A DNA stretch of 64,000 nucleotides, taken from Magnolia sinica (Eukaryota; Streptophyta; Magnoliopsida; Magnoliales; Magnoliaceae). The notes below the pieces were generated by a model, which was not told the origin of the DNA, did no database searches, and saw only the letters and a list, made by a program, of their open reading frames with translations. Below are positions 7,901 through 51,475 of the stretch, piece after piece. A program made the position numbers and the translations under genes. Each line of letters begins with the position of its first letter. Position 1 is the stretch's first letter. The stretch spans positions 28,006,501-28,070,500 of the forward strand of contig NC_080577.1 in NCBI RefSeq assembly GCF_029962835.1, in the 5' to 3' direction.

Positions 7901-10900
7901 CTGCTTCACTATTATCTAATGCTTGTTGCATTTCGGCGAGAGCACCTCCAGAACGAAGCAGCATCGTGGGTGGGTCAAGCCCCAATTGTCCGGCCATATG
8001 AAGTATTTCTTTATGTAATGTTGCCTGAAAGAGAAACATGGAAAATGCTAAAGGCGTGCTATGAATAGCAATGCTACAATGATAATTTGGCAGACGTTTG
8101 TAAGTTTCACATAAACCCGTTTTAGAAATGTGTTTTTTAAATCATCCAAGAGAATTTTTATAATGCCATTGTAAGAAATGTAGGAGTTTGTACAATGTCA
8201 TTGTAAGAATGAGAATAAAATGAAACACTTTTCCTTCCAGTGCCATTGCAAAAGGTCTGTTGTTAAATATTCAAACAAAACTGATGTAGAGCCGCAATGA
8301 CATCTGAAGAATATTGTAAATGAAGAAGAAAACTCAACTGGATGGTTGTAGGTGCAAATTAAGAGTCACCACTAGCCAATTTCTAAAACATAAGGTAGCA
8401 AAACCTTGTCTTTGAGTTTTTCAAAAAACCCGAAAGGGCTCTTCAAAATTTATGGAAAATGACTCCAAGGGTGACCTCGAATTTGAGATTCTAGGCAAGG
8501 GTCTAGGTGATGTCATTGTTTAGAGTATCCCCAATAGTATCCGTATCTCCAGCTTGGCAATACCGATAACACTTGTAGCAATATTGATAACATTGGTAGT
8601 ATTATAAAAAATTATTGCTAAGTATCACCAATATTTTCGACTGTGTATACTCCAGGTGTCACTTGTATCGCTAGTGTATCAGCAATATTTTGATAATATA
8701 GGCAACGTATTGATGTTGCCAAAAATCTGTTTATTAAAACAATTTCCATTTCGATCTTTTTTTTTTAAAATATATAATGGGTGCATGGTTGTATGCAATG
8801 TTCAAATTGTCGATGATGATCGTTATTGCAACATGGGCGATATCGAGATCATAATCTTCATATCCTTTCCGATTGTCAATGATTTCTCTGTGAAATATGA
8901 TGTATTGTTGATATTCTGAAATATCAATGGATGGATAGGTGGGATTGATGGGATGGTTGAACTAATTTCTTACAACATTACATGCTTCTAGGCCCCCTTT
9001 AAATGGAAATTTATTATGTATGCATTCTTTTTGCAATTTTTTTTTTTTAAAAAAAAAAAAATTCTTAAATATGCAAATATGCATATTTCAGCACCTTCTA
9101 AAGTTTCACTAAAAAATTCCACTGTTTTCCTCATGTTTCCCTACATTTCCGGTTATCGGCGATATCAATATTGTTTCCGTATCCCCAGCCAACGAAACTT
9201 GTAGCAATACTGATACTTCAAACGCTGGGTGATATCGAAGGAAAGTGTTAAGCACCCCCTTCCCCACATGTGCAAAACAAGGTCTCTAATTCATGTGGGG
9301 AAATGAAATTCTTCGAATTTTTGTTAATTGCTTGAGATAGAAGTAAAAAGAAAACAATAAGAAGAAGAATAGAATGGGAATAATATAAGAATGCTTTTGC
9401 AATGTAGTAAACTTGTTGTATGGAGCTTCGTCTTCAATAGTTCTCAATCTTCTTTGGAGGTCTTTTCTTGCAACGTTCATCTTCAATTATTCTAGAAAAT
9501 GGGGTGACAAGAACAAGTGAACTCTTTTGCCCTTAAGGGCATGTTTGGATTCATGAAAAGCATGAGAAAGGAAATAGTGGAAATATTGTTTTCCTTGTTT
9601 GTTTTTCCACAAGATTTTCATAGAAATTTAGAATCTATTTTCAAGTTTGTTATTTGGCAAAATAAAAATTTTTAAAGCAGTCACTTGTGCTAGATTAGCA
9701 CATGTGGCACATGTGGGATGCTTAAAGATGAATAGTAGCACATGTGGCATACACAACATATGTGGGCACTTAAAGCTAAATTGTGGCACACATGGTACAT
9801 GTGAGGTGCTTTAAGTTGTACAGTGACTAGAGCTGACTCGACTCGGTCCAAAATCAACATGGCCTGACCCGAACTCGATCCAATCCGGGACCGAGTCCGG
9901 GTCATCTGACTCGAACCGATCCGAACCACTGCTGACCTAAACTGATCCGAGTCCGACTCGGCCAGGAAAACCGAGTCGGATCGGATTGGGCAAGGTTTGG
10001 TGGAGAAGATAAGCCTGTCCTACAGCCAATGATATCATGACACGTGTCGTTCACGTGTACCATTACGTATTCTTTAATGCACTAAGATCTCATTATTCGT
10101 GTTAAGAAATTTGAATTTCAAAACTCACACAATCTCTAACAGCTCTTTTTCTCATCCACAGACCCAACTCTCATCTGCTTCTCCTCCACAGAATCCACTC
10201 TCATCTCATCTCATCTCTCTCTGAAACTTTTCAATCGCCATGGCCAAGAAGGTTCAAAATCAAGAAAACCGAACAGAAGCAACAGCCCACGACGATACCT
10301 CGAAGCAGTTGGCGAGCTTGAAAGCCCTCAAGATGAAATTGTTGCGTCCGAGATTGAGCAAGCCATGAGCATCCTCATCATCGCTTTAGAATTGGGTGAA
10401 CGAGAGGAGAAATGGAGCGAAAAGATTGCAAGTGTGGAGAAAACGGCGACAGTGGAAGTGGAGATGAAATCAGCAATGACCCAAATGATGAAATCGATCG
10501 AGCAAGATAGGGAACAGCTGATGACACAAGTCACACTTTTTGATGCGAGGTTGGAGGAGAGCGTCAGAGACAGGGAAGAGATCGAGCGGGCCATGGCTGA
10601 GAAAGAGATTAAGGTCAAGGAGATAAGGAAAGAGGTGGATGGCGTTCGAATGGATATCAATCTGCATAAAGAGGTGGCGGGCGGTTGAGATTGGCTGTGG
10701 CGGAGCTGGAAAAGAGCAGTGCAAAGGGTCGAGCAGGAAAACCGAGATTTGAAGAAGAAGAAGAAGAGCACCTGCTCCGGATCGGGTCAGATCGGATCGG
10801 TCCGGATCCATTCAGATTAGGATTTCGGATTGGATCGGTTCGGATCCATTCAGATCAAGTTTTTGGATCGGATCGGTCCGGATAGGCCACTATCTGAACC

Positions 10901-13694
10901 CGACCCGAAAAACTGTTGGATCTGAATGGCCCTACCCGATCCGCACCGATCCAGGCCGTCGGTTCGGTTCGGAACGGGTTGGATCGGGTCTGATCGGGTC
11001 AGACATGCCCAGCTCTAACAGTGACACATGTGGCACAAGACATGCATGGGCACATTTGACATGTAGGCACTGACGCTAGATGACGGCACTTATGCACATT
11101 GGCACCATTGGCACATGCCATTTTTGAAGCATTGAAGATGGACAATGGCACGTGCTATATGTGGAGGATTGAAGATAGACAATGGCACGTGTGGCACATT
11201 GGCACGTGTGGGGCACAAGTAAGATGAATGGCGGTACATGTGACACAATAACACGTGGGGGGAAAGATGAATGGTGACACATGTGGCACATTATCACATT
11301 GGGGGCTCTGTACACGTGGGGCACAAGATAAGATGGATGGCGGTACATGTGGCATAGTGGCATGTGTGGGGCATGACCAAAGATGGACAATGTCTCATTT
11401 GGGACATGTGGCACATGTGCAGTGATTGAACATGGATAGGAGCGCATTTGGGCCTTAACTTTGAGAAACCCATTTTCCTTCTACCGTGGGAAATGCATTT
11501 CTTAGAGTTAGGGGTGGAAGTGGAAAAATAAATTTATTTATTTTCCAACAGATATAGAAAGTGGGAAATGCTGTTTCTTACAATTTCCTACAAAGAAAGG
11601 CTTAACAAACAATGGAAAGTGAGTTTCATGGGAAACACCATTTCCTTTCCCATGCTTTCCATGAATCCAAAACTTTGAGAAACTCATTTTCCTTCTACCG
11701 TGGGAAATGCATTTTTTAGAGTTAGGGGTAGAAGTGGAAAAATAAATTTACTTATTTTCCAACAAAGATAGAGAAAGTGGGAAATGGTGTTTCCAACAAC
11801 TTCCCACAAAGAAAGGCTTAACAAACAATAGAAAGTGACTTTCATGGGAAACACTATTTCCTTTCCCATGCTTTCCATGAATCCAAACAGGCCCTAAGGT
11901 GAATTTTGCTGAATTTTATCAAGCTAGTTGAAAAGTATAAAAAAGCAAAAAAGAAAAATATAGGGATGATGACGAATATCAACCCTTAGGCTTGTGGTTC
12001 ATCCTACCTGCTAACATTTCCAAAATTTCCTCCATAGCACAAATCTTAAGCTGGGGAATCCTTTTTATGCCGTTTTGCCCTATGAAATATTGCTATCTAG
12101 CATTCCATCTTGTTTTTGAACAATCTGTCATGCTCTTTCCAAAAGGTAGGGATGTTTTAGAAGGGTGATAAGTAATTTGATTGATAGGGTTGATTGGGTA
12201 GTAGTGAGGTGAATTTTTGGCTGTTTGAGGGGTAACCAAGGTGGACGAAGGTTGTAGGAGGTTTTCTAGGAGTTAAGGTTTGAATGGGTAGAATTTGGAC
12301 ATGTGTCAAGATTAATAATGCAAGTTAGGGTTTAATTAAGAGTCCAAGGGGTATTTGGTCATAATTACGTCTAAAGGGTCAACTAAAATGGATCTTGGGT
12401 TTTGAATTTTTGTGCAAGGGAATAAATGTAATTGAGAATTGCTCTGTTGCAATAAAAGTGTTTGAGTCTTACCTAGCACACTTCTTGATTTAAGATCGGG
12501 TCTTAGTACTTAGCTATTGATTTTTGGGTGATCTTAGAATTGTTGGAAGCTGATTTAGTAGGCTCTCTAATAGTTTTGGTTCGAGGTTGAAAATCAATAT
12601 GGTTAGAATGATATGGGCTTTGTAAATTGGGTCAACTTTCTGAAATTGCAGTTTTACAGTTTTCTGCACTCTGTTTGGTAATTTGATGTGATCTTGATGC
12701 TCGGCAAGGTGTTCCGTAATGGTAATGGTGGCCGTAACGGCCACCACCATTACCTTTACGATATGGGGCATAACGGCTGTTACGGCCCCGTAATGGCCAT
12801 TATGGTCTCTCTTTTTTATTATTTATTTATTTAATGAAAAAACTCCCAAAAAACCTATATCTATCCCGTAATGTTGATTAAAAAGTATGAAAAACCTGTA
12901 TATGTCCTGTAATAGACTATTACGGGGCTATTATGGCCTTTATAAGGGATGTAACGTGTTGTTAATGGCAATTACAGGTCATTTTTTTTTTCATAACGGT
13001 TGTTATGGCCATTTCGACCCCGTAACGTGTAACAGTTGCCACCGTTACCTTTACGTAACGGCCTTTACGGCACACCATGATGCTCGGAGACTGGATCGGT
13101 CGGATTTTGTGCTCTCATTGTAAAGCTAACTCCATCGGTAGCTCATTGGGATTGGAGTTAAGGAACTAGTTTAAGGAGATGGGAACAATTGGGTCCCGAA
13201 GAAGCTTAGAAAGCAGAGTGCTCTCTAGGTAGCGAAAAGAGGTTTACTGCGTAACGGAGAGTTATCTTAAACAACTTACTAGAACGCAGAAAATGTTTTT
13301 CTGAATCCAAAGAAGCTTAAGAAAAAGGGGGTGAGGGCCCCCAGACATAGATTGGGCTGGTTCCCACACCTCTTAATCTCTTGGGTTTAGGTGAAAACTA
13401 GGTCTAGGCTAGGGCTTTTATGATCCCCACAAAAATTGAAGCCAAGAATACAACCCTCCTGACTGAGTTTGACAGGATTAACTAATCTAGACTACCAATA
13501 TCAGGCAGTGTCAAGATATATGCAATGTTCAAAATATCGGTATTGCGTTATGTATCACATGATTCACATCCTTGGGATATAGATACGTATCGGTTACGGG
13601 ATATATCGTTTGTATTGGGTAATTTATCGCTTTTTTTATAGGAAACATGGGGAAACATTGGGAAAATTGTTGAATTTTTCAATGAAACTTCAGG

Positions 13695-13733
<39 letters not shown>

Positions 13734-16700
13734 ACCTCAATATGCACTTTTGAATCATAACGTCTCAAAAAAGAAGTGCACATAATAAGTTTCATTTGTA
13801 TAGGGTCCTAAGCTATGTGTTGTTTGACTGAACTAATGCAACTATATTCAACTTGAATGCATAACATTTAAAGTGCATGTGATGATCATTTCATCAAACA
13901 CTCCTAAATACTTCGAAATCAGTCTCAATTAACATCTGGTTGAAGGGAAATTTTGGGGGAAAATATTTTAATACTTATTTTTATTAATTTTTAATTAAAA
14001 TTTATTTTTCGAAAATTGACAAGGACTTAACAAATCAGTAGATCAGCCCTCATACACTCAAAATTTGAAATTAAAATGCTTTTGATAATCATTTCATCAA
14101 ATATTTTAAAATTAGTCTCAATTGACAGCTGGTCAAAGGAAATTTTTGAAAAAAAAAATATGGAGAACATGAAGACCAATGGATTTGTAACCATTTGACA
14201 TTGATTTAACATAATTTCAACAAAAACAAGGGATTGGAAATTGAAAATGCTCACCAAATCGAACATGTAGGATATATTGGCACTACCTATGCATTTTGTA
14301 TTGCACAGGTGAGATACAAGATATATCGTGGGATATATCAGCCGATATCGTCAATATTTAAAACATTACATATATGTAAATGTGTGTAGCTTGTAAAGAC
14401 CATTTCCGAATTAAATTCTAATTTGACTTTACAAATACACTTACAAGTAATACTAATATCCATGTATCAATACATATAGAAATGATCCAGTAGAGTGACT
14501 TTGCAGATACACGTACATACAAGTAATATCCATGTATCAATACATATAGAAATGTTCTAGTAGAGTGAACTAGACAAAGTGCATAGTGGCCTCCCTCCCT
14601 CCTGCCCGCCCACCCCCCTGACAATGAATTGTCTGATCAGTGTGATTTTTTTATTTTTTCATTTCAGACCACCAAATGCACCCTGGACCTAATGGACAGT
14701 TCACATTGGTCAATCGAAGTGCCCAAGTGTCCCGATAGGAGCTGATTTCCCTGTCCGTATGCATGCACAAACATCTTTTCTGACAAACTATCACATGTGT
14801 GGACATCAAAGCGATTGAAAACATGGATCAGCATGATGATCACGTTGCATGAAAATTCATCAGGTTTGTGCACTATGTTGTGTTGGACTGTTGGCTGTGC
14901 GATGATTTTGATGGCATGGGACGCCTAATCAGTTGGCTGCATCTATTTTTTCTTACCCCCTTCTATTCGGTTCTTTTACCTATTTTTCTTTTCAATATTT
15001 TATGACATTTTCTGATTTACCATTGTTGCCAGTTAAAAATCGACTTAACTGAGTCACGATTTCTCATCCACCTAGCCCAGTTGAACATAGAAACCAGTTT
15101 CTATGTTGATTTCAAGTTTCAAATATTCGTTTTGCATATGCCATGGGTGAAACATTTCCGGGAATGATCAGGAAAGGAACATTTGGATTATAAGAAAAAA
15201 AGGGGAGAAGAATATGTTGGTTTTTACCTGGCTATATGGACCAATGCAACTGGGTGCCCAGGATGAAATGCTTTGTACATGCAGAACTCTTTTGCTACGG
15301 TCATTTGCCACTAAAACCTCGACATATGCTTTCCCAAGACCAACTTCGGTCAGAGGCAGTTCGATCGTACTGCGAGATGGAACACCCAAGTTGCACTTCT
15401 TTTCTGTAATAAAGCTCACATATGTTTCATTTGCTAAAGCAAAATCATTCATGTTGGCAATGTAGAGATGAATGTATAGAACATCCACCCAATCAAAACC
15501 ACCTCCATGAAGTTGGGCTTCAATTTTCTTCAGAACAGCGGTCAAATCTTTTTCCAGACCTGCAAATACATATTCAAGATCACTGGGCAATCACCTAACA
15601 TTTGGATGAAAAGAAGACTTGAATGGGAAACATGCTCCTAGAGCTCAAAAGTTCTTACGATCTGAACTTCCACAAGGATCTTGGATCCAACAACAGATAG
15701 AAAATGTATCCCTTTTGGTTCTTGAAGTATGCAACTTTGCATCCATAACAGTACAAATATCGGAAGCTAAATCTGCGGATTGGCAGTTGAGTACAGATGT
15801 TGATACACTATCTGCTTCTACTTCACATACATGGCCTGTCTTCTCCGAACTGCTATCAGGCTTGCCATTATTGCTGAATGAAGTGGATTCTTTTTTGTAT
15901 TCCAGATGGAAAGAAGAAGGATGAAGGATGCCTACTGGAGCTATGGAATCCGAAGAGTGCCGAACAACTTGAAAATCATTGACAACAATTCGTGCATTCT
16001 GGAAATTCTACACATTAGATGCCTGATGCAACATCTGTAAAGAAACAATAGAGTAGAAAATATCCCAAAACCATAAAAGCAATTTGATTGTTGCAATTTA
16101 ACATTCCACAAGCAACTGAGATTGTTAGGATGAATTAACAGCCATGAACAGACCACGTCCACTTGAGAATTAGGTGCAAGAGAACACGCGGTTATTAGAT
16201 GCAAGAGCAGGGAAGCATCATCCACACAAACATACAGATCACATCCACACTTGGAAATTAGTTGCAAGAGTAGGGAAGCGTCTATTTCCAAATGTTAGTG
16301 AGTATAACAGATAGGGAGCACAAGCAACACCTAGTTAGAAGGATCATGCAATTAGGGTCTGTTTGGATTGAAGGTAAACTAGGGCAATGCATGGGAGAGC
16401 AAAAACATGACATAAGTGGGAAGTAAATTGAGATTGGCACTAGGGGAAACAAATCCTTTGCACCTACTTGTTTGACTAAGAGAAGTCCTAGAAAATGCTT
16501 TCCTTTGCATTTGCAACTGTTTGAATTACAAACCTATAAAAGAAAATCTTTTATCCTTCAAAATTGCCATTTAAAATGTTACAGCAGAGGCAAACTTTTT
16601 CCCTGCCATTTGAATTTTTGAGAAAAGGCTGTTCTCTCTTGTTGAGCGAAAAGCAAATGCAAACACTTACTGTAGCATTCTCTGCTTCCCAAACAGGTGC

Positions 16701-19700
16701 AATGGTCTTGTTGATGCAAACTGGTTGCATTTCCTAGTTTGCATTCTATCCAAACAGGCCCCAAGGGACAATTGAACCTTCAAGCTCATCTACTTAAAAG
16801 AGAAAGAAAGCATAGATAGGGACTGGAACGACGCAAAAATTGGAACTTACTGTAAAAAGAGGGCAGTCAAGGGTGAGCGTTTCATATTCTCCACCTTCAC
16901 CACATACATTTATCCCATACAACCTGTGAAAGAATAAATAGATAACTTTTTTTTTTTGGAGATGATTTATTATTGCTGGGCCGAAGCCAAAAGAATACAA
17001 CATACAGGAAAGAAAAAGTACAAGAGAACAGAGAATAAACTTTCCTGTGGCTTTAAAAGCTATCACCCATTCCAATACATTCGCATTAGCCCTGTTGAAT
17101 GCATTCGATACCAGGCTGTTTCTATTCTGAAAACACCTATTGTTCCTCTCCTCCCATTCCACCCAAATTGACCACCAATGAAATCTTCCATACTTCTTTC
17201 TCTTCCTTCCCAATGCCTCCCTTGTGCCAAGCCCAAAAGAAACTTTCAATTGATCTTGACAATACCCAAGAGATTCCAAATTCTACAAAGAAAATTTTTC
17301 CGTAATTCTCTTGCAAAAGGGCAATGAAGAAAAAGATGGTCCGCCCTTTCTTCATTCTGCATACGCGTCAAACATACATTCAGCAGAATCATCCATTGCT
17401 TTCAAAGATTATCAACATATAGCACCTTGTTCCTTCCCACCAACCATGCCAAGGCCACCACTTTGGGGGGGAGCTTTATCATGCCACATGAACGACGTGT
17501 GGCTAATTTGCCTACCCAATGAAGATCTAGAAATGAACTTATAAAATGATTTGAGTGAGAATTTCCCTGAATTTTCTTTTATCTAGACCATAAATTCCCG
17601 CTCACCCACCACTGGTACAGCTTGTTGAAGCCTTTCCAACAACTTCCCCACCACAGCTGTGCTTGTTGAAGCCTATCCAACAACTTCCCCACCATTGGTG
17701 CAACTCGCTGAAGTCTTTCCAACAACTTCATCATCTCCTCACTTCTTCTTCCAATAGATTCCTTCTACACAAAGGGGCCCCTGTCACCTCATGTCTTTCA
17801 ACTGAGAAGCAGCAAGCAACCAATATGTTCAACTCCTTTGCGATTCTAGCCGAATTGGGAAAGTCTTCTTGAAGAGAATTATCTATCATCAAAACATCTT
17901 CCAAAAACGAATGCTACTACCGTCTCCCAAGGAGAAACTAACCCCTTATGTGATGGGGACATCTCGCGTACACGCACGCCCCCCTTACGCACGTACACAA
18001 GGAGGGCCCCACCTTCGATCTAGATTGATGACGACATCCATGGAGGGCCTCCTAATTAGAGGACTATGTTTTGGTTCCTTGGGGTGGACCCGATCATCAT
18101 GTGGATCCCATCATTGGATCTCATGATCGTGGCCCACTACCCTAGGTGACCTAGGACTTTGAGTTTTGCTTATTACCGTTATTAGGAATATCATGAACGG
18201 TTTAGATTACATTGATTAGTTGTTATTTTTTATTGCTTCGTCTTTAAGTAATAGTATGCGCACATGGCGTGGCTTTTGGGGTATAGGTTTTTCTTATAAA
18301 TAGGCAACCCCTTGTAGGGTTTTTTTATCATTGAAGATGATTAATAAAATTCTGCATTTTCCTGCTTCTCTAATTCTCTAAGTTGTGGAAACCTAATTAG
18401 GTGCGAAACCCTCTCTTCTTCGAAGGGCTAACTACCGTGGTGCGAAACCACACCCATCCCAAATCACCCCCATCTCCTACCCTCCATATTCTTCATCTCC
18501 TACAGCCATCCCCTCATCAAATCCACCCATGTTTGCAGCTAATCTTTCCCCTACAACAGATTTTCAGAATTTAGCCCTGCAGGAGGGCTGAAACTTCGGC
18601 GGAGCACCGTATTTAAACCGATCATCCGTTTGGCCTGAAATTTGGAAGGTGGCCCAATCCTGGCCGACCATACCGTAGTTGGCTGATTCCAGATTCGTGG
18701 GCCCCACAAACGTACGGGCCGCCATCCACGCACGTGCATCAGGCCGATTTGTTGTCCCACGTGGAGACTGATCACAGGTTCCCTCCCGTCTCTATTTCAC
18801 TCCTCTTTTGCCTTGTTTCCATAACCCTAACCTTAGATCATCTCAAATCCCCAAGTTCTATTCCACTTTTAAAATCCTAAGTTTTCCCGAATTGAAACGT
18901 GAGAATCCCTTGAATTGGGAAATAATCATTTGCATGTGTGGATGAATCTACTATCCTTTGGGCATTGTTTGGTCTATAATTGCAGGCTTGGACCCTCGTA
19001 GATTCCCCTTGCTGAATGCTTGATTTTATGTGGGATGTGGAATTATTGTGATTGTTTCTAAATTATTATGATCTAAAGCTTGAAATCTTGCATATCATAT
19101 CTAATTTTCATGTCCTGCATCATTATGTTTCCTCCTTACACTTGCTATAGTTTTCCAAGCCCCTGATGATATAAACAAGACTCTCTTATCCATCTACCTA
19201 CTTCCTCTATTCTATATTTCTTTACTATGAGATGTCTCCATAGATGACTTTCCTCCTTGCCAAGCCACCATTACCAGTTTCCCAACAGCAACAGCTTAAT
19301 CATTTCCAAATTCTAATACCTACTCCCCATGGTTTTGAATATCCGTATTAGGGGATGTATCGACCCGACCAAAAAACAATACTATATGGGCATCGTGTAT
19401 CAATATCGGTTCGTATCGGACAATATCGGCATGTATTGGTCAAAAAAATTTTAAGCTAAAGAATTAAGGAAAATATCAAGAAAAAAGAAGAAGAGAATAA
19501 TAAGATATTCAAGAATCAATGTTCTTTTTTTGTTTTTCCTTTTTTCGTTTTGTATTTTAGACATGCATATGATGGTGTATCAGACCATTCTTTGATGAGA
19601 ATGTTGTCTATTGGTTTGACGATATGGGCTTATTGGATCTATATTGGCCCCTGCCAGACTGTATTCGTTGATTTTTTTTTTAAGGCAAAATTATTGTAAA

Positions 19701-20307
19701 AATATAAATGAAATATGGGTGTGGGGAAAAAAAATAGAAATTCAAGAATCTCTAACTTTTTATATTTTAGACATGCATATGATGGTGTATCAGACCATTC
19801 TTTGATGAGAATGTTGTCTATTGGTTTGACTTGTTGAAGGTCAACTAAATGGGCCCTAATTGAACACAAATCAAGCATGATTCAGTGAACTAGGACCCAC
19901 TGCATTGAAATACAACAAAAGGAAGATGAAAATAGTGAAAAGAAAGTGAAGGTTTACCCTTCTTTCCGATTTTTCCCATAATGGTCCACTTCGCTTCGAT
20001 TTGTTGAATCTCATTCAAATAATTTGTTTTGATCTCAAAATAGGTCTAGATCTAGCCTAAAATGAGTTTTTAAGCTTCTTGGTTTAAATGAAAAAAGAAA
20101 AGGAAAAATGGGCAGATTTATATAAATATCAAAATTAGACTTTTATGAGCGTATCGGTACCGATATGCCCCGTATTAGCCGATATGGGCCAATACGATCC
20201 CGTATCATGTATCATCTCGTGCCAATACGAATACGATATGGCCGTATCGGCTAATACGATATCAATATTCTGATCTATGCTCTCTCCCTTCCTAAAATGG
20301 CTTCCGC

Positions 20308-20390
<83 letters not shown>

Positions 20391-23300
20391 AAATTTGGAC
20401 TTTTATAAGCATATCGGCTGATAGAATATCGATATTTAGACCTATGCTCTCTCCCTTCCTGAAATGGCTTGCACACCTCTCATTTTATCAAATGGAATTT
20501 ATGCTTATCTTTTGCTCCTTTTTCATAAGAAGTCTCTTCTTCATTTATCCTAGCGGTGAAGCACCCACTTTGGGCATCTGAACAACGACATAAAACATAC
20601 CAAGAGGTTAGATAGCCGCCTTTATCAACATTAACCTTCCTCCTAGAGATAGATGTCTTCTCTTCTAGCTTGATAGCTTCCATTCAAATCTTTCCACTAC
20701 TTATCCCACAAGTGTTTAGCCGGTTTGCTTATAAATAGCAGGAATCCTAAATATGTTGAAGGAAAAGATCCCAACCAACATTCAAAGACTCTAGCATACG
20801 CTTCCACCTCTTTTTAGATAACTGAATTCCTAGTAGTTCACTTTTATTGATATTCACTCCCATGTTTTAAATAGTGTTTGTAACGTAGTGTAGCGTTAGC
20901 AAATAGTGTAAATCCCTCGTAACATATGCTACAGGGTTTGTAGCGTATGTAGCACCCTGTAGCATGCATGAAGCATCATAGCGTATGCTCTTCATGCTAT
21001 GTTTTTTATAAATGATAATTGTATTTTGTACTTAATACTCTCAACCTGTGGAATTTTAATTTCTTTCCATACTTGTGACTTGGATTTCAATTAGACATTA
21101 TTAATCAAATTGGTTTTTGCTTATAAATTTGTTGATGTGATAATGATTTGATTTAGTTTATATTTGTAGATTGGCTTTTGATAAATGATAATTAATAACT
21201 TGTTTGAACACTGCAGGCAAAAGTTTCATCTCCTTAAATGGGGGGAAGGTCTGCAAGCTGATTTCTGAAAGGGGAGTGGGGATCAAGAACTTGGGGCTTA
21301 TGAACATTACGCTTCTTGGGAAGTGGTTATGGAAATTTGGTATAGAAACACGGAGCCTTTGGAGGGGAATCATCTCGGGCAAATATGGAGTTCAAAAGGG
21401 GGGTTGGTTTGTAAAGCCCTCATCTTTATATCGGGCCTCCAGTATATGGAAAGCAATTGCGTCAACGGAACACCGATTTCGAAGAGGGATTTCATTCTCT
21501 TTTGGTAAGGGGGACAAGATATACTCCTAGATAGATGAGCGGTCTAGTGAAAGGCCACTCCAAGAGGTGTTCCTTACTCTAGTTTCTCTTAGTTCGGATC
21601 GTTATATCTTAGTTTTGAGGTGTCTATCTATCATCAACAGTTCTATGGTTTGGTGCACCCGTGCCAAAGGAATTTGTCTGATGACAATTTCCTGCTTTGT
21701 TGGAATAGCTCAAGCTCACCATCGCCATCCCCTTTGGCGAAGGACTCCATAATTTGGAAAGGACACCATTCTCAGATATTTTCGGTTGCTTCTTTTTTAT
21801 TCTCTCCTTTTTTGGCCTAAGTGCGACCCCTCACCCACCCCATCCATTTCTCCATTGGCATTATGCTTGCGCCTTTTGTGTGGCTTGTTGGTCAGCAGAA
21901 GGTGCTAACCATTGACAACCTCTAACGAAGATCTCTCATTCTTCCCAATATTTACCTCATGTGCATGAAGGATGCGGAGTCTATTAACCACCTATTCATT
22001 CATTGTACCTTTGCTCGAAAAATGTGGGAACTCTTCGTTGTTGAGGCTCACATGGCTTGGGTTATGCCAAAGTCTGTAGAGACCATTCTTTAGGCTTGGC
22101 ATGGTGGGGACAGCAGTAAGGCTTCTAAAGTTGTCTGGAGACTACTTATTATGGCTCTTTTTTTTTCTTTTTCTTTTTTTGTTGCCATATGGAAAGAAAA
22201 GAATGAGTGGTGTTTCAGAAATGGAATTCATCGGTGGATTGGGTGATTAAGGCTACAAAGGGGTTTGTGAGGGACTGGACTCCCCATGTTGATGAAGCTA
22301 AGGCTACCCCTTATTTCCAATTTTTGTCCTCTTAGTTTCGTGTTGTATTCTTTCCCTACCCTTGGGCAGGCCTTCTAATAAATTTTGTTCTCCCTATATA
22401 AAAAATAAAAAATAAAAATTTGTTAGAACATGCTTATACTTGAAAAAATGAATCATCCTTTAGGCATTTTTATTTTTATTTTTTTGATTTTTTTCTTACT
22501 ATTTATCATATTTTTCTATTTTTAAATTAAAAAATAGAAGTATGGTGTAGCTTACACTACACGCTACAGAGGGTTGAATGCTATGCCATGAAACTGCCTC
22601 AAAACAAGAAACAATCTTAATTGTCCACCTTGATCACATCCACATCATAAAATAAAATAGTATTATCTGCATACTGAAGGTGAGATACCTGAAACTCTGA
22701 CATATCAACCCTAAACCCTTCTATTAGATTTCATTCCACACCTCTTTGTAGCATTCGACTGAAAGCTTCCATCACTACCACAAATAACTATGGAGATAAT
22801 GAGTGTCCCTTGTCTCAAACCCCCTGAAGATGAAAAATAGCCCTTTAGAGATCCATTAACCAAAATTGAAAAGTTTGCCAACTTGACACGCATCTATATC
22901 TACCTTCTCAATTTCTGACCACAAACCAAACAATCTAACATGTAGTCCAGAAAACCCCAATTCATGTACTCATACGCCTTTTCTATATCTAATTTACAAA
23001 CAACTCCTCTTTTTATTTCTTTCTTTTCTTTATGCTGAGAGTCGATCACTTCCTGTGCGATCAATCGATGCACTATCCATTATCTGCCTGTCTGCTACAA
23101 ATGCTCCTTGCAATTTGGAAATCACCCTACTCAAAACTACCCAAAATCTTGAAGCCAATATCTTTGCTAATAATTTGTATGGACTACCCAATAAATTAAT
23201 TGGACAAAAATGTCGCAAACTCTCCGCTCCTCTTTTTGGGACCAAAGCTATAAATGTTGCACCCAGTTGGGCCAGTATTCTTTTGTATAGATAACAATTT

Positions 23301-26300
23301 ACCCATGATATTAAACTAATAGCTGCAATAATTGCCAGAATGTACATAATTCATACCGTTTGCCAATAAAGAGTTACAAATGGAAAAGGATCTGACGATA
23401 TCACTTATATTTTAGTTATCAAGCACAGCAGGCATGTAAACAATCCAGACCATTACAATCCAGACCATTCATCTGCTCACCCTAGCCATCAATTGGAGGA
23501 CTTTTGATAATTATAAATGGACAGTTGGTTAGTAAAAAGTAAAAGTCCTACCACCAATTGACTTTCAACGGCCAAAAATCCTCCCACTGTTGTTGGATCA
23601 TCCAATGAGTCTGAATTATTGGGCAGGGCCCATCTGCAGTAGGGCCTAATTAATGAATGGTCCAGATCTCACACATGCATCTCACCAGTATGGAGATTGA
23701 TTGCTGGATAACTTACCTTTATGTGGTTAGCAACAAATCCTTTTTCATTACAGACTCTAGTTAGGAATTTGAGGGTCTTGGCAATCAAACAAAATTCATT
23801 GCTTCTCAGCATTTAATGACTATCAGTATTGACAATGAACAAAAGAAAAGAAAAGAAAAGAAAAAAAGAATGAATATATATAAGGACATTGCATAAGATG
23901 ATCTACCCTGACATACTCGTTCAATTGAAGCAGTTGGGGTTGCAAGTGCGCAATCTCTCTGCCCAAGTGTTTTGCCGGATTCAGCCCCATGGCCGCAACC
24001 TGTGACATATCCACATCAGTTCCTTTCATCATTATTTTCCACAGCAAGCCATAAGAAACAATGATCGAAATAATATGGTACAAGTATAGTGCAAAAATCC
24101 ATGTGAGGTATCTCATGTGAGTAACATACAAAATGCATGTCTGGTCCGGAATCAATGCATATAACTCAAGTTATTTCATTTCATCTAGAATAAAGTTGGC
24201 AGGTGTTTGCGCTCATTACAAATGCACTAGGCGGTTATCAATGCATAGCTACATTATCACACTAGAAATTTGTTTATATATGGGTAATAAACATTAATTA
24301 ACAACATTTGAGAAAGGAAGCCAAGAATTTAGAACTTCCGTCATATTTCATTATTCATTCATTCCACAAACTACTAAAATTGAAGGGAAGGCAATGCTAA
24401 TGCTTGGACTGAAAAACTTGAACCAATGATATTACAATGATTATGAACGCAAGGAATCTGCAAAGCTATGATGAAAATGAAATATAAATTGTCAAGGACT
24501 ATATTACAGGGGAAGTTCTAGAAAAATCTTAAGGGGGTTGTGGGAAAAGAAAAGAAAAGATATGGATTCCAACGGCACTATTCAAACATGGATTCCATTT
24601 TTACGGGTCTTGTTTGGATAGCAATTGGAACTCTCATATTCCTCTCACAATACTAACCTGGTATCTTATGCAAGAGAATTTGATTATGGAAAAGGGCAAT
24701 GATTGCTATGTGGCTCATGGTTCAAATTATCATGTATCGTTTTTGTATCAATGACCATTGATACATGATACAATATGTATGGTATTGCCAATACAATCGA
24801 TTTATTGGGATATCGGTATGAAATTTTCAAAGGTAAAAAGATATTGAAATAATATTTTATATTGTATTCTTGTATATATTTGTTTTTCTCAATTAAAAAT
24901 ACTTTTATGTATTGATAAATGACATTAAATACTTTAAGGAGTAAGTAAAATATGCATTTTTTATGTTTTTTCTCTTGATTTTTCTTTACTACACAATAAG
25001 TATCAATTTATCGTATTGATCTTGACTGATACACAATGCATATCAACTGATATGTAAAACCACGATGTGGATTCCAAACATTTTCTTTGTTATTCAAACA
25101 TTGTGAAACATCCCATCATGAGAAAAGTGCTTCATTTTATTTTCTTTTCCCACTATCCAATACTCTAAGCCACCAGCCGCTCATTGCATTTTCAGCAAAA
25201 CAGAAACCACACATGCAGTATACCAAGAGAAAAGAAGCAGGCAAAATCAATTCAAATAAAAACAGCGAAAGAAGGATGAAAGACATAATAAATAATAGCT
25301 TTTACCTTTACAATGATGGCCACAATTCCATTTGTTATCTATTAAGAGTCATACAAGACATAAGTTATATGGTGTCAAAGTACATAACTGAAATAATGTA
25401 GAAACTATCTTGGATAGGTGCTCAACCAACTGACAAATAAAGAAATTACCATCTCTTGCAGGAGCAAAGATTGATCTTGTTTCCATAGATATGCCAGAGA
25501 AACAAGTCCTAACCTGGAACAAACACTCTCCACCCTTAGCCTTTGATAGTCAGAAGCAATAGCACCAGAGGACACTGCAGTGATTGAGGGAATCTGTTTT
25601 TTTACTTCATTGAGCAAAATGAACATATCTTCAACTTCATCATCTGGAGTCACTGTGTAGTTAAGATGCTGATGCCTATTTAAAAAATATATGTAAAGCA
25701 AAGATAAGATTTTGAAGAAAACCCAAATCAAGCCCAACTGATCCAATATAAGAATCTCAAAGGGAACCAAACGTATTTATGAGAAGTTATATAGTTTTTG
25801 AGCAAACATGAAGGACACTATTCTTGACATGAGGCCTTCATGCAGAGGGTTTTATGGTGTATTCTTATGTGTTCTTATCTCATGATTATCGATTATTGAT
25901 TATCTTGGAAAGCTCAACACTCCCAAAAAGGGTTCTCAAGGTTGACAGAGAGATTTTAGATCTCTCTTGTTGAGGTCACTTGATGTGCACGTCTTTCTAC
26001 CGAACTCCATGCATGCATATGCTTCTCCATGATGATTAATGTGATACAAGCATATAAAGATGATGGAATGGGACAGATGACCCAGGTAATATTGTTCATC
26101 TCAACCCATTCTTCAACACCAGTTCCATAGAAACTTAGGGCATTGTTTTTCCCCTCCTAAGTAGAGAGGTGGCTACTGAAATATATACACACTCACACCA
26201 AAATCTCCTTATTTCACTTATATCTCTACAAGTGTATGTGATGATGAAGTCTTTCATGAATTTAAGTGGACGTAACTTTCTCTTGGACGCATACTTGTGC

Positions 26301-29300
26301 TGTTTAGATTTAACTGTGATGAAGCTATCAATATAACTACCCTTCACGCCAGCAATCAATTCATGGTTGCTACAAGTTTTCATGTGTTTCTCATTATATA
26401 TCAATCCCACGGCTTACTTCAAAGCAGATTGGAATTCACTGTTCAAACAATGAATAGCAATATGCAATCCAAATAGGGGTGTACACCGAGTCGAGCTGGC
26501 CTCGGCTAGACTCGGCTCGGCTCGGTCCTCGAGCCTGACTAGCTAGCTCGGCTCGGTTCAGTCAGCAGCTAGGGCCAATTCGAGCCAAAATCAAGCCTCT
26601 GCGGCGTTTTCACAAACACATGCTGTGCACTTTCAATTTCTCACTGTATGTAAAATAGCGGCAGCTGTTTACAAGTATTTTATCAAACGCCTTGTAGGCA
26701 ACATCAAAATCAAGAAAAAATGGTATTTGTTTCATATACATACCTTCCTTGCCACTAGCCGACACTTCGCTGAGTCATTTCATCAAACACTTGGTGAGCA
26801 ACATCAATTGCAAATGAATCGATGGGTCCCTCATTGCAAATGAATGTCTCCATTCCAGTCATCGATCCAAAAAGAAATTTATTTTCTGCAATTTGGACAT
26901 GGAAAAGGCCTACGATCACGTAGACTGAGATTTTCTTCTTTATATGATGAAGTGTATGGGTTTCGGTGAGGTATGGAGAAAATGGATCAAGGAATGCATC
27001 AGCTCGGCGCGTTTCTCTATTCTCCTGAATGGATCATCGAAAGGATTCTTTAAAAGCTCGCGTGGTCTATGTCAAGGAGATCCTCTGTCTCCCTTTCTTT
27101 TCCTAATCATCGGTGAAGCCTTATCTTCAATGCTTCTTAAAGGTCAGACGGAAGGTATCTTCAGGGGTGTCCAAGTGGAAGGACTTCATGATCCAATCTC
27201 TCATGTTCAGTTTGCGGATGACATCTTAATATTCTCTGAAGCCAGCTCTGAGTCTGTTTCTAATCTGCGTACAGTTATTAGATGCTTTGAAGTGGTAGCA
27301 GGGCTGAAGGTGAACATGTTCAAATTTATAATCTACGGAGTCAATATGGACAATCAGGAGGTTAGCGACATGGCAGATCTTATGGGGTGCTCCTCGGGAT
27401 CTTTCCCGGCGACTTTCGTGGGCCTTCCTTTATGCATCAGCCATCCAAAAAAGTACCAATGGGACAAGGTCATACAGCATTTTCATCATCACTTGGTTGC
27501 GTGGAAATGTCGTTACCTATCTATCGGTGGTCGGCTCACGCTGATTAAAGCAGCGTTATCTAATCTCCCAACTTACTTCATGTCTTTGTTTCGCTGCCCT
27601 GTTACGGTCCTTAAATCCATAGACTCCCTTAGGCGCAATTTCCTCTGGTGCAGGAAAGATGACAAGAAGAATTTCAATCTGATGGAATGGAGACAAGTAT
27701 GCAAACCGATAACAGAGGGGGGCGCAGGCATAAAGGAATTAAAAATGATGAATCGGGCTCTCTTAGGGAAATGGATTTGGAGACTTGGTACGGAAAAGAA
27801 CAGTCTGTGGAATAAAATTATAAAAGGCAAATATGGGAGTTTGGAAGGAGATTGGTGGACTTCAGAGTCTTCTTTGTATAGGGCTTCTGCGATCTGGAAA
27901 GGCATTTATCGCCTGAAAAAAGATGTCATCCAAAGGATAGGTTTTACAGTAGGCAAAGGTGACTGCATTCACTTCTGGACGGATATCTGGCTTGGAGACA
28001 CCCCGCTGAAAGAGAAATTCCCCTCCATTTTCCACCTTGCCGTGAAGAAGAACAGTTTCATTGCTGATAACTACACTATCGCTACAAATAGAGTAGTTTG
28101 GAATATTAAATGTCATAGGAACTTGGAGGATTAGGAAATTAGTGAGTTTGTAGAGCTTCTGGACTACGTGCATCATGCTATTCCGAACCAGTCTTTGAAG
28201 GACAGTCTAACGTGGAAAGCTGACAAATCCTCAGTTTTCACGGTCGGATCTCTTTACATGCATCTCTCTCTCTCAATCACAGTAGATCCTCTTCACAGGG
28301 TATTCATTTACTTTGGAAGTATGTTGTCCCCCCAAAATTTATCATGTTTGGTTGGCTGGCTGGGAACAGGAAAATCCTCATCATAGATAACCTCAGGAAA
28401 AGAGGCATGGTCTTAACCAATGTATGCATCTGTTGCTTGAAAGTGGAAGAATCTGTGGACCATTTGTTGATCCACTGCCCATTTGCTCAAGCCATTTCGT
28501 CAGATATGATCTCTTGCTTCGAGGTCAGTTGGTGTTTCCCTAGGGATGTAGAAGCGCTTCTTAAGGCTTGGCATGGCATTAAAATAGGTAGGCCAACATC
28601 TTGTATATGGCAGATGGCGATCATGGCAATATGGTGGGGTGTGTGGACAAAAAGAAACAACTGCTGTTTCCGCAACGAATCAAAATCTTCTCATGGCGTG
28701 GCTTCTTACATCAAATGTCTGATTGCGGAATGGGTTTTCCATATGGATGGGCCTGATGTAGATCTAGCCTTTATTAAGGCTTAGCTTTCCTTCTGCTATC
28801 TCAGCAGTGTTCTTTGTTTGTTCTGTTTTTCTTTTTCTCTTAATATAAGTTATCTTTCAAAAAAAAAAAAAAAAACACATCAATATCAAAGTAAGCGAGT
28901 CACCGAACTAGTTTGATTCGAGTTGGGGTTCGATCCGAGTCGAGTCGAGCTCGGGCAAGCTTGAACTCGGTACGAAATTTTTTCGAGCTAAAAAAATCAG
29001 CTCGACCGGCTCAAACTCAGCTTCGAATCAAGCTTTTTCAAGTCAAGTCAAGCGAGCTAACCGAGCTAACTCGGTTCATGAACACCCCTAAATCCAAATA
29101 TGGTATAAAACCTAAGCATGGAGTTATGCAAGCCAGATGGAATGAAGCTTTAAAGGTATGTTCTCTTAACCATGATGGTGGGAAGTGTGCATCCTTGTCC
29201 TGATTGTGAAGTGACTAACAGTGAAACAAGATGAACTATGAAGTCAACGCTCAGCCTGAACTACCATAGAAGTGGGCCCACTTCTCGTGATCCAGAGTGA

Positions 29301-31702: not shown

Positions 31703-31990
31703 CTCTCTCTCTCTCTCTCACACACGAGTGATAAGGAGAAGTAGAAAAAGAAGAAGGAGACGGCGCTTTGACTCGATTGAAGTTTAAATGGGAAACCGGT
31801 CTCGTACAAAATGACTGGCTGAAATGACGATTCGACCGGAATCGTGGACAACATCTGTTTTACGAACCAAGTTCTGTGGGACCCACCATGTTGTATATAT
31901 AAATCCATTCCGTCCATCAGGTGTGAAACCTTATTTTTACTGTACATTAACAAGATCATCCTGATATAATAATTTAAACGGCTACAAAAT
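31703..31990 (-). promoter_or_regulatory. DPH6 5' UTR and proximal promoter region
   Basis: Immediately upstream of the ATG the minus strand carries a GA repeat of about 16 nt, then a TC-rich leader. About 190 bp upstream, GGATTTATATATACAAC (31890-31906) contains a TATA-like core. It lies within a GTGGGACCCACCATG foldback-repeat arm (31874-31920). No transcription start was mapped, so the promoter assignment is inferred from position. Confidence 0.4.
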
Positions 31991-36310: not shown

Positions 36311-36315
<5 letters not shown>

Positions 36316-43132: not shown

Positions 43133-43614
43133 TTGGTGAATAGAGCTAGGCATATATGACACGATCCGGTGAATCTAACCCGATCTGACCCGTTCCAAAC
43201 CGAACCGACGACCTGTATCGGTGCGGATCGGGTAGGGCCATTCAAATCCAACATTTTTTCGGATCGAGATCGGGTTGTGGTCAATCCAGACCAATCCGAT
43301 CCGAAAACCCAATCTGAATGGATTCGGACCGACCCGATCCAAAGTGGTTCTTATCAATAATTCTACTTTTTCCAGTGGTATGGTCCACTTGAGCTTTGGA
43401 TATGCATCAATTTTGGGTTCAACCACTGAAATGATCTGGATAAACGAATGGACGGCGTGGATAAACCACATGCATTCACTGTGGGCCCCAACAGAGTTTA
43501 CTTAGTACGATAAGAGCCCATTGAGAAATTTCGTGATGTCCGCGTCAACACATCAGTTAGCAGCTTGGAAGCGGATTGCGTAGTGAAGATGAGCATTGAC
43601 GCTCCCTTGAGCTC

Positions 43615-44020
43615 TGAGTTGTACGAACAGTTCAAAGGAGATCAAAGTTATATGGGCCCCATAGTGATGTATTTATTATATCCGTTCATCTATTTTTAGA
43701 GATCATTTTAGAACATTATCCAAAAAATGAATCATATCCAAAGATCATCTGGACCACACCACAAATAATTCGTAGGGCCCAACATAGCTTTTATTTTCCA
43801 TCCAATCTGTTCGTAAGGTCACAAAGACCTAAATTAAGAGGCAAAACAAATTTCACATTGATCCAAAACTTCTATGAGGCTGTGACCCCAAAAAGGCTTT
43901 CAATGGTAGACGTTCAATCCCCACTGCTTTTTTTTTGTGTGGTCCACCTGACTCGCCAAATAGATGGACGGTTTGGATATAACACATGCCCCATGATCAG
44001 ACCCACAAAACTTGCTAACG
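43615..44020. repeat. Foldback repeat inside hAT element (first copy)
   Basis: Contains GGGCCCCATAGTGATGTATT at the left, the shared centre in inverted orientation (CACATTGATCCAAAACTTC), then GTGGTCCACCTGACTCG and the right arm near 44000. Bordering GAGCTCTGAGTTGTACGAAC recurs before the next copy. Confidence 0.55.
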
Positions 44021-44099
44021 TAAATGAAGCAATGCAAGCACTTTCGTGCATGGCACATTACAGCTACACGCTGTGTACAGCACGTCAACGCAACTGTAG

Positions 44100-44612
44100 C
44101 ACCTCGAGCTCCGAGTTGTACGAACGACTTAAATGGGGAACAGAGTGGTCGGTGGTCTGTGGGCCCGAAAATAATGTATATGTTTCATCCATGTCGTCCA
44201 TATATTTTTCCAGGTCATTTTATGGTGTGAGATAAAAAATGAGGTATATCCAAATCTCAAGGGGAGCACATTAAAGGAAACAGTGTTGAATGAGCGTTGA
44301 CCATTAAAAAACTTTTGGGGGCCATAAAAGTTTTGGATCAATCTGATCTTTATTTTTTCCATTCATCTGGACCTTTATGACCTAATCAACATATTGGATT
44401 TCAAATAAACAGTACATTGGGCCTCAGGAGGATTTTAATTGTGGATATCCAATCACTATTGTTTTCCTGTGGTGTGGTCCACCTGAGATTTATATCCCTC
44501 TCATATTTTGGGTCAAGTGCTAAAATGATCTTTAAAAATGGATGAATGGAATGGATTAAAAACACACATCATGGTGGGTCCCACAGAGCACTGACCACCA
44601 GCCACGGGGCTA
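44100..44612. repeat. Foldback repeat inside hAT element (second copy)
   Basis: Roughly 220-bp inverted arms: GTGGGCCCGAAAATAATGTA on the left, GGTGGGTCCCACAGAGCACT on the right. The centre (GGATCAATCTGATC) lies near 44340. Shares its centre with the copies at 32968, 49084 and 52410. Confidence 0.65.
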
Positions 44613-45040
44613 GTGGTAAGGGGAGTAGCCAATCCGTTTCCGCTCAAACGAGATTAACATTACATGGGCCCCACAATGAAGTATTTATTATATCCATACC
44701 ATTTATCCATTTTTTGTGATCATTTTAGAGCATTTGGAAAAAAAAAACGAACCATATCTAAAGCTCAAATGGACCACACTGTAAATAGCAGCGAGGATAA
44801 TGATTTTCACCATTAAAAAAGTCGATCCAAATCGTACCCAACCCAATCTGACTCGGTTTCCCTAACCGAGTCGGACTCGGTTCGGGTCAGGCCAACCGTG
44901 TGTTGGATCGGTTCAAGTCTTGTGTCCCGGACTCGGTCCCGGATCGGATCGGGTTTGGATCAGCCCAACTACATTTCGAACCGAATCGAGTTGGATCGAA
45001 TCCGATCCGACTCGGTCCGATGCCCAGCTCTATTGGTGAA

Positions 45041-48200: not shown

Positions 48201-48440
48201 CTGGGGAGAGAAGACCGTTGGGCTGAGGTGAAGATCGGACACTGGTCGGTAGAGCTCAAGCTTCGTAAAACAAACAAATAAATAGAAAGGGGGATTGACA
48301 TATTTATAGCACTCCCTTAACAATGCATTTACTCCTGCACAGTGTGACATGTCAGCACGAGATCCGGAGGTGACGCTTTGACTGATGCGCCCCTCCACGT
48401 GGCGCCTGAAATTCATCCAAGTAAAAATGTGACGGCCCAA

Positions 48441-49083: not shown

Positions 49084-49591
49084 GTTTGACTAGTGACCCC
49101 AACACCAGCAAGCTAGCTGGTGTCAAAGCTCTATGGGCCTCACCTTGATGTATGTGTTTTATCCACGCCATCCATTCACTTTTTTAGCTCATTTTGCATG
49201 AGCAAAAGAATAAGGCATATCCAAATCTTAGGTAGACCACACCATAGGAAACAATGCCGATTGAACACTTACGGCAAATTGTTTGGGGTCAAAAGTTTTG
49301 GAAAGTTGATATTTGTTTTTCCCTTCATCCAAGTCCATGTGACCATATCAATGGGTTGGATAGGAAATAAACATTATAGTGGACCCTAGGAAGTTTTTAA
49401 TGCTGGGCATTCAATCAACATTGTTTTCCTGTGGTGTGGTCCACCTGAGATTCAGATTTACCTTTGGGCTCATGCCTCAAAATGAGCTGGCAAAATGGAT
49501 GGACAGCACGGATAAATCACATACATCATAGTGGGTGCCCAAGGAGTTTTGACACTAGCTATCTGGCAGGTGTTGGGGTCACTAGCCAAAC
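49084..49591. repeat. Foldback element with about 220-bp terminal inverted repeats
   Basis: Left end GTTTGACTAGTGACCCCAAC and right end in reverse complement GTTTGGCTAGTGACCCCAAC. The arms stay complementary for about 220 bp (ATGTATGTGTTTTATCCACG, ACCACACCATAGGAAACAAT). The centre is TTGATATTTGTTTTTCCC then CCATGTGACCATATC. This is the cleanest copy in the window. No target duplication was recognised. Confidence 0.75.
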
Positions 49592-50925
49592 TTTGTTCCT
49601 ATGTCACCCTATTTTAGGCCCATGGCAGAAAAATCAACTCATTTCATGATTTAGGCAGGCCATACAAAAGGAAATATTTGGGAAGGGATGCCCATCCTTG
49701 ATTTTAGATGGCCCACTGTGATGTTTACGTGAAATCCAAGTGTCATCTCAACTTAGGTCTAAGGACAAAAAATTAGGTTGACTAAGCCTCAAGAGAGACG
49801 TCCACTCTTGATCTTTTTTAGGGCCCACCGTAATATCATATGAAATCCACTCCAGCACACCCAACTGTGATTCGGATAGGCCACATGAAACAACATAGTT
49901 TCAAGAGTGAGTGTTGCCCTATACACATTGTTTCCATTCGTATGGACTGCCTGACCTAACATGGCGGGATGCACGTGGTAGTTAGGGTGATTCATGGTTG
50001 GCTTGTGTGAGAATTCCTGGAATCCCATTTGGTTCAAAGCTACGATAGTTTAAAACATCATGCCGTTTCACTTCAGAAATAATGGGCTCACTTTGTTGTC
50101 TACCTCGGGCTAAAAAATTTATAATTTTTACTGAAGTATATATTTCGATGAGCTTATTACAATCATTATATCAAATATCATATATAAACATTAATTTGGT
50201 ATATTAAAGATGATTTGCTTTAATCAAAGGGTCTTATGAATATGGTACCGAATTCCAATGCATTTCATCACCGGCCAGCAGACATAAATTTTTTTTTTTT
50301 ATTCCAATATATTTCAATTATAAGATGTCAAACACAACCGAAGGGCTCCAATTTAGATAAATTCCATAGAGCAATGATTTGGATTCTAATTCATATCAAA
50401 TACAAGCTATTAAACCAGCTCGAAGTTATAATTTTTAACTACATAAATATAAATATAACTAAGGGTTCTATTTATATTTTTTAGTGGAGTACCTACTACA
50501 TTTCAACTTCATTCATTTGTCTTTTTCTTCATTTTCTCTCATTTTCTTTTTAATTAATTCTCTGGTGGGGTATAATTGATGATGCGCAGAAAAGAAAAAT
50601 TAATTAAAAACTACTAAATGAATTATAAGTAATTCAAAGTAAACCGTCCAAATTATGGTCCCAATTTCGATGCACCTGACCAATAGGCTTATTTGGTTAT
50701 CCGAGTATCAGAATGGTGGACATTTATAGGACAGTTAAAAATGAAAATATCCCAATGGCCCTACTTCAAAAAACAAGTGTCCACGAATTAACGTCCAGGA
50801 TTGTTTAACCAATCTGATTTTGCTATTCCACGATTTAATTGGTTCAATTTGAGTTAATCGTATGTTCCATTACAATTGGACTGCTTGAGTATGAAGCATC
50901 ATGCTCTACCAGAGTGTCAAATGAC
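49592..50925. repeat. Foldback arms and a dispersed repeat copy
   Basis: 49690-49960 holds further GGGCCCACCGTAATATCATA-type arms. 50000-50630 is AT-rich and unclassified. 50636-50900 resembles 53386-53700 (ACCGTCCAAAT, ACAAGTGTCCAC, CTGATTTTG in the same order), so both are copies of an unnamed repeat. Confidence 0.45.
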
Positions 50926-51111
50926 CATTGTTTTAAGACTCCGACCAGTTTGATGCGACTCGTCTGAGTCGACTCGGACTTGGTCAGACCCAATTTAGTT
51001 TTAGATGCAATGACTCTTCCCTGAGTCGGGCAAGTCGGGCCGATTCAGCCCGAGTTGCGACCTGACTCAGAACCCACGAGTCACGTCGAGTAATCGAGTC
51101 TTGCAAGCATG
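50926..51111. mobile_element. Small hAT-like element, CATNG group, ACTCG words
   Basis: Left end CATTGTTTTAAGACTCCGAC; right end in reverse complement CATGCTTGCAAGACTCGAT. Flanks CAAATGAC (50918-50925) and CAAATGAG (51112-51119) match at 7 of 8. The whole 186 bp is ACTCG, GAGTCG and CGAGT words. Confidence 0.7.
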
Positions 51112-51475
51112 CAAATGAGAAGTGATCGTGTCGAGTAACCGGTCAGCATTCAATAGGCGGAATCCTTCAAACAATGGCTAGAACGTCCAATCACTAATTT
51201 TGGGACTTTCCCCCTTCACAACGAGTCCCGATTTAGAGAGTTAAACGTTAGCATGCGGGGTACGCGGATTGCCTGCAACAGGAAGCTAGATGAGGCCCAC
51301 CGTGATGTTTGTGAGAAATCCACCCCATCCGTCCGTTTTTTTCATATCATCATTGAACATAGGCCTAAAAATGAAGCAGATCCAAAACTCAAGTGAGCCG
51401 CATGACAAGAAAAGTGGATAGGAAAATGCCCACTGTTGAAACCTCGCTGGACTCCCACCGTGATGTTTATATCAG

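Follow-up and report, generated by a model that had tools for sequence, protein, structure and literature searches.

Probable non-autonomous hAT-type elements with loosely shared tips and type-specific subterminal words in a 64-kb stretch of the Magnolia sinica genome

A 64-kb stretch of Magnolia sinica DNA (contig NC_080577.1; hereafter the window) carries, largely within the span of a single gene, a set of short elements with inverted ends, five of which are very probably non-autonomous hAT transposons. We label the elements E1 to E8. The first seven correspond to the intervals proposed in a sequence-only reading of the window, whose coordinates proved correct to the base when the intervals were read from it, and E8 was added here. 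E1–E5 range in size from 186 to 846 bp. The features are listed below by their positions in the window, with the flanking duplication and the terminal inverted repeat (TIR) given as matching bases; strand applies to the gene.

8514 to 9227: E1, non-autonomous hAT-type, TATC word type; duplication GGTGATGT/GGTGATAT, 7/8; TIR 12/16; 9 TATC inside
12705 to 13079: E2, non-autonomous hAT-type, CGTAA word type; duplication ATGCTCGG/ATGCTCGG, 8/8; TIR 13/16; 7 CGTAA inside
13523 to 14368: E3, non-autonomous hAT-type, TATC word type; duplication GATATATG/CATATATG, 7/8; TIR 12/16; 15 TATC inside
19328 to 20446: E6, decayed TATC-type without a clean duplication (4/8); 14 TATC inside; right end present twice (20279, 20446)
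20861 to 22585: E7, possible decayed TAGYG-type with an insert resembling a long interspersed nuclear element (LINE); duplication 0/8; 7 TAGYG inside
24716 to 25064: E4, non-autonomous hAT-type, TATC word type; duplication ATGTGGCT/ATGTGGAT, 7/8; TIR 11/16; 11 TATC inside
26474 to 29090: E8, hAT-type with a reverse-transcriptase open reading frame (ORF); TAGGGGTGT tips; duplication AATCCAAA, 8/8
50926 to 51111: E5, non-autonomous hAT-type, GACTC word type; duplication CAAATGAC/CAAATGAG, 7/8; TIR 12/16; 7 GACTC inside
7623 to 31717, minus strand: host gene, diphthamide synthase (diphthine-ammonia ligase) with RidA-like domains, from Pfam matches to coding pieces

Flanks were compared by matching the last k bases 5′ of each element with the first k bases 3′ of it, for k from 3 to 13. 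At length 8 the flanks of E1–E5 agree at 7, 8, 7, 7 and 7 positions respectively, and a match of at least 7/8 has a frequency of 0.0007 among random 8-mer pairs (200,000 draws, at distances as in the elements). When flanks were paired across different elements over all seven intervals E1–E7, none of the 42 pairs reached 7/8 and the best agreed at 6 positions. The earlier claims that five elements have 8-bp duplications matching at 7/8 or 8/8, and that E6 and E7 are without a clean one, are thus borne out. With the tips as given, flank identity of E1–E5 is 0.90 at length 8 and 0.13–0.34 at all the other lengths. The boundaries are not settled by flank identity alone. Sliding both tips jointly by 1–2 bases keeps flank identity at 0.75–0.85, and shifting one tip gives values of 0.80–0.91 at length 7 and 0.78–0.84 at length 9. 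With such shifted tips the inverted ends agree at no more than 4.8 of 16 bases, against 12.0 before; the sole symmetric alternative is length 10 with both tips one base shorter (flanks 0.78, ends 11.8/16). No other combination suits flanks and ends as well as length 8 with unmoved tips, which is what hAT insertion predicts.

The same measurements bear on whether the elements are Mutator-like, with a 9-bp duplication, or TIR elements of some other kind. Making one tip one base shorter raises flank identity to 0.82–0.84 at length 9, and E2 then matches at 9/9, but these shortened forms lose the inverted end match (4.4–4.6 versus 12.0 of 16) and with unmoved tips the 9-bp flanks agree at only 0.13. 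We consider such an origin highly improbable. Assignment to the Mutator-like elements (MULEs) by their 9-bp duplication was rejected, since a 9-bp fit needs a tip shortening that destroys the inverted match.

How far do the elements share their ends? The terminal inverted match in E1–E6 is 11–13 of 16, and the tips of E1–E5 begin with CA, except for the right ends of E3 (TA) and E4 (CG). The sequence-only reading had described a defined end in which CATNG is followed by a T-rich stretch and then by AAATATC or AAGACTC. The inverted ends hold, but not the fixed sequence: strict CATNG is found in 4 of the 10 ends of E1–E5, AAATATC or AAGACTC at positions 10–16 in 3 of them, and the ends of E2 (CAAGGTGTTCCGTAA and CATGGTGTGCCGTAA) have neither. 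We then ranked each tip with a leave-one-out profile of positions 3–11 among sites beginning CA or TA. A common outer tip fits E1, E3 and E4 at both ends, and E5 and E6 at the left end; these ends fall in the top 0.07–2.5% of sites; over positions 1–11 of the shared profile, the left tips of E4, E5 and E6 are in the top 0.007–0.014%. The two ends of E2 rank in the top 6.3% and 5.0% and have nothing in common with the others beyond CA..G, and the right ends of E5 and E6 (the latter taken at 20279) rank in the top 8.1% and 12.8%. Accordingly, not all ends fit a single-family profile for the end CATNGTTTTRAATATC, those of E2 and the right ends of E5 and E6 being unconvincing over background. The right tip of E7 is at background level, with 19% of sites scoring equally well, and is possibly a chance pairing.

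Inside the tips, the elements differ in the short words that recur near their ends. Words were counted after stripping the outer 18 bp on each side, in the adjoining terminal stretches of at most 132 bp per side (264 bp), pooling both ends of each element and taking E6, for TATC, with its right end at 20279; 4000 random windows of matched size served as background. TATC occurs 9, 15, 11 and 14 times in E1, E3, E4 and E6, respectively, and 0–1 times in E2, E5 and E7. Each of the remaining words is confined in a similar manner among E1–E7: CGTAA is found 7 times in E2 and 0–1 times in any other, GACTC 7 times in E5 and in none of the others, and TAGYG 7 times in E7 and 0–1 times in any other. 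The count of an element's own word was reached by none of the 4000 random windows for E1, E2, E3, E5, E6 and E7 and by three for E4, figures that are uncorrected for the words having been chosen after inspection of the elements. Across the 64 kb, every window with at least 9 TATC per 264 bp overlaps E1, E3, E4 or E6. The interiors had been said to be unrelated in length and word content, and this was not confirmed, given the dense TATC arrays of four elements and a 53-bp stretch that E1 (reversed) and E3 share at 79% identity in inverted order. A search for the most frequent 4- to 6-mers relative to resampled sequences was clear for E3 (6-mers) and E5, and weak for E1, E2, E4 and E6 (end 20279) because A/T-rich resamplings also yield frequent words. 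For E7 it was mixed, the leading words being A/T runs, and for E6 with its end at 20446 the leaders were only CT and AC microsatellites. Tests based on random windows and on tip position were used in its place.

The recurring words begin within the tips themselves. GTATC starts at position 12 of both E1 ends, GACTC at position 12 of both E5 ends and CGTAA at position 11 of both E2 ends. Over E1–E8, the tip 4-mers from positions 12 and 13 are enriched 4.86-fold and 4.34-fold in the interior of their own element, against 0.79–1.24-fold for positions 1–9, and 1.48-fold and 1.58-fold in the interiors of the other elements. Random interval sets gave a mean enrichment of 1.12 and a maximum of 2.44 versus the observed mean of 4.6, which none of 2000 sets reached. 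When tips were reassigned to interiors, 16 of 40320 permutations reached the observed sum, swaps within the TATC type being counted among them, and with a single TATC representative at a time the result was 1 of 120. As a control, tip words from positions 1–11 gave 6, 1, 10 and 4 of 120 with E1, E3, E4 and E6 as the TATC representative, so the outer tip holds little of the tip-interior signal, though not none. The ends are therefore bipartite: the outer bases are loosely common, and bases from about 12 to 16 are the first copy of the element's own recurring word. For E7, TAGYG is perhaps such a tip-interior word. What stands behind each tip is thus the outermost copy of the subterminal repeat proper to that element, and this explains why the interiors had seemed to have no words in common.

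The defining features of hAT elements are TIRs, subterminal repeats and 8-bp duplications (PMC4890040). E1–E5 have the 8-bp duplication, imperfect short TIRs and subterminal motifs at both ends. None of the seven ORFs of at least 60 amino acids inside E1–E4 matched a Pfam family above the cut-off, and E5 contains no stop-free stretch longer than 42 amino acids. Among the nine ORFs of at least 45 amino acids that overlap E6, three were searched against Pfam and none gave a match above the cut-off, four shorter ones and two that bear microsatellites being left out. The earlier description of these elements as non-autonomous and hAT-like is supported by the 8-bp duplication, the CA-type inverted tips, the subterminal repeats and the absence of any domain above the cut-off in the scanned ORFs. 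We are thus fairly confident that E1–E5 are non-autonomous hAT transposons of three word types, whose tips would be cut and whose words would be bound by transposase, and that E6 is a decayed element of the TATC word type.

Some observations weigh against this interpretation. Four of the five duplications carry one mismatch, E6 and E7 lack a duplication altogether, the tip of E2 is generic, and the words were picked after the elements had been looked at. In addition, the correspondence of tip and interior is not exclusive: the tip words of E5 are enriched 3.4-fold in the interior of E8, whose terminal 400 bp contain GACTC five times, and those of E2 3.65-fold in the interior of E6. Blind scans for end pairs are also of limited help. 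A profile-free scan for CA- or TA-tipped inverted ends with flanks matching at least 7/8 at length 8 returned 7 pairs, of which 4 are E1, E2, E3 and E5 (E4 was missed because its right tip begins with CG), and the same type of scan in 8 resampled sequences returned 2, 8, 4, 1, 1, 2, 1 and 2 pairs, so that the count alone is not decisive. A second scan used the consensus of the sequence-only reading and is blind to E2 and to the right end of E4. At 13/16 ends it gave 4 pairs versus 0.6 expected. With flanks of at least 6/8 and 40 first-order Markov resamplings, it gave 2 versus 0.0 at 13/16 ends, 2 versus 0.2 at 12/16 ends and, at 11/16 ends, no excess (7 versus a mean of 5.65). The little or no excess at loose thresholds is what would be expected if the elements were chance pairs of A/T-rich ends picked by eye. 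Against this stand the five out of five flanks that match at least 7/8 at one common length and the word arrays bounded by those very ends, and chance, which on this evidence we can scarcely credit, was rejected for E1–E5 on the flank matches and the word tests. Since the ends alone are weak, the case for hAT insertion is carried by the duplications together with the words.

Do the elements form one family? If they did, one transposase would read nothing but the CATNGTTTT tip that they have in common, and the words inside would play no part. The left tips of E4, E5 and E6, which fit the shared profile so well, speak for this. However, the words differ by type, are locked to about position 12 of the tip and are enriched inside, the tip of E2 lies outside the shared profile beyond CA..G, and subterminal repeats are the seat of specificity or strong binding in Ac and Tgf2 (PMC3260210, PMC4890040). 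We therefore find a single family unlikely. A family with one end was rejected, as the ends fail a single profile and the words differ; no common subterminal motif accompanies the end CATNGTTTTRAATATC, three words being present among E1–E5. The opposite explanation is that the elements belong to unrelated hAT families that have only a generic CA..G tip and a size class in common, the likeness to CATNGTTTT being A/T-rich convergence. The weak ranks of both E2 ends and of the right ends of E5 and E6 favour it, whereas the ranks of both ends of E1, E3 and E4 and of the left ends of E5 and E6, and the interior sequence common to E1 and E3, do not. We take unrelated families to be a real possibility, albeit one that falls short of probable. 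Given three different words behind similar tips, the set appears to comprise several small families rather than a single new group. The proposal of a coherent group stands for the TATC-type elements E1, E3 and E4, to which E6 can be added by its left end and word. It extends loosely to E5 by the left end only, fails for E2 and is not demonstrable for E7.

A bipartite layout has precedents among hAT transposons. Recognition of hAT ends is bipartite, weak at the TIR and strong at subterminal repeats through the N-terminal domain (PMC4890040). The maize Ac/Ds system resembles E1–E5 in consisting of heterogeneous non-autonomous elements, with TIRs of 11 bp, duplications of 8 bp (PMC3260210) and size classes such as Ds1 (<500 bp) and Ds-l4 (~1 kb) (PMC3260210). 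AAACGG repeats most likely impart specificity on Ac, and none of the Ds-l elements tested in that study was excised by Ac (PMC3260210). The difference is that Ac has the word AAACGG, while here three word types lie in one 64-kb window; Ac/Ds proper was rejected, as AAACGG is absent on either strand from the terminal stretches (at most 200 bp per side) of each of E1–E8. In the goldfish element Tgf2, the 50-base probe as printed can be read as an 11-bp TIR with subterminal repeats immediately behind it, similar to the elements of the window, and end recognition is bipartite through a BED-type zinc finger (PMC4890040). Tgf2 differs in being an animal element with a known transposase, another tip (CAGAGGTG...) and another word (PMC4890040). 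For the mosquito element Herves, the sequence of the binding region is described as varying between hAT transposons; Herves differs in being an autonomous animal element with the motif CG/AATTCAT, in which the right TIR alone is bound (PMC3143072). Also comparable are plant hAT miniature inverted-repeat transposable elements (MITEs), which are reported to be prevalent in nearly all species surveyed, MITE length being typically 50–800 bp (PMC12550479). The tip strings of our elements were not found in open-licence PMC text, a search that lies outside Repbase, P-MITE and supplements, and the excerpt of the BuT2 paper holds nothing on a tip consensus.

Three of the elements have a more complex structure. 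The right end of E6 and its flank are duplicated (20245–20314 and 20412–20481, 86%), which makes the end ambiguous between 20279 and 20446, and the flank letters after these two positions are identical. Over the whole region 19328–20481, the doubled right end includes about 35 bp of flank and its copies are parted by (CT)n(AC)n microsatellites. Inside E6 there are also two 73-bp copies, at 19548–19620 and 19758–19830, 99% identical and 210 bp apart, seemingly a recent internal duplication within an otherwise decayed element. E7 contains a LINE-like fragment at about 21213–22419, bounded by TTGTTTGAACA/TTGTTAGAACA. Its ORF at 21192–21527 had no Pfam match and is 48% identical over 108 amino acids to the reverse-transcriptase ORF of E8 (26929–28131), which matches RVT_1 in Pfam with E=4.2e-12. 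The flanks of E8 match in full at length 8 (AATCCAAA); no other length between 4 and 12 gives more than 4 matching bases. The words near the ends of E8 are of the CTCGG/GAGTCG type, and GACTC is common to E8 and E5 but stands behind a different tip in E8 (TAGGGGTGT).

E1–E4 and E6–E8 lie between coding pieces of the diphthamide synthase gene, most likely in its introns, and E5 lies outside its span. The pieces of this gene were recognised by Diphthami_syn_2 at 25408–25776 (1.1e-10) and 31382–31717 (0.0002, below cut-off), and by Ribonuc_L-PSP at 15171–15590 (1.3e-8) and 7623–8141 (0.00089, below cut-off). The window holds other repeats as well. A near-perfect inverted repeat with 57-bp arms (96%) at 52607–52868 is part of a family of repeats of which the window has six diverged copies, and two long inverted pairs of 171 bp (84%) and 176 bp (77%) connect 9825–10994 with 43173–45002, some 32–35 kb apart. 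At 4391–4548 there are two 79-bp tandem units (94%) containing GGTTCGAGTACC, in which ARAGORN reported no tRNA. They resemble the head of a tRNA-derived short interspersed nuclear element.

How might such elements move? Following established hAT biology, E1–E5 would be mobilised by hAT transposases whose genes lie elsewhere in the genome. The transposase would cut at the outer tip, which is loosely common to the elements, and would owe its specificity to binding the repeated word, whose outermost site, adjoining the tip, would start at base 12. TATC, CGTAA and GACTC would then be three types of binding word, which probably call for at least three diverged hAT transposases. A more speculative idea, which we put forward tentatively and hold to be rather doubtful, is that several hAT families of this genome keep the cleavage tip (~CATNGTTTTAA, bases 1–11) while the binding word, bases 12–16 together with the whole array, is swapped as a unit, so that tip and word would be separable modules. 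The presence of GACTC behind the different tip of E8 would fit such mixing of tips and words. If this were true, the words would be a readable record of changes in zinc-finger specificity. The elements themselves belong to an ordinary class of plant repeats, and their usefulness resides in the measured layout, a loose tip followed from about base 12 by a type-specific word. This layout lets hAT MITEs without other shared sequence be sorted by type of binding specificity, and it predicts which transposase drives which MITE.

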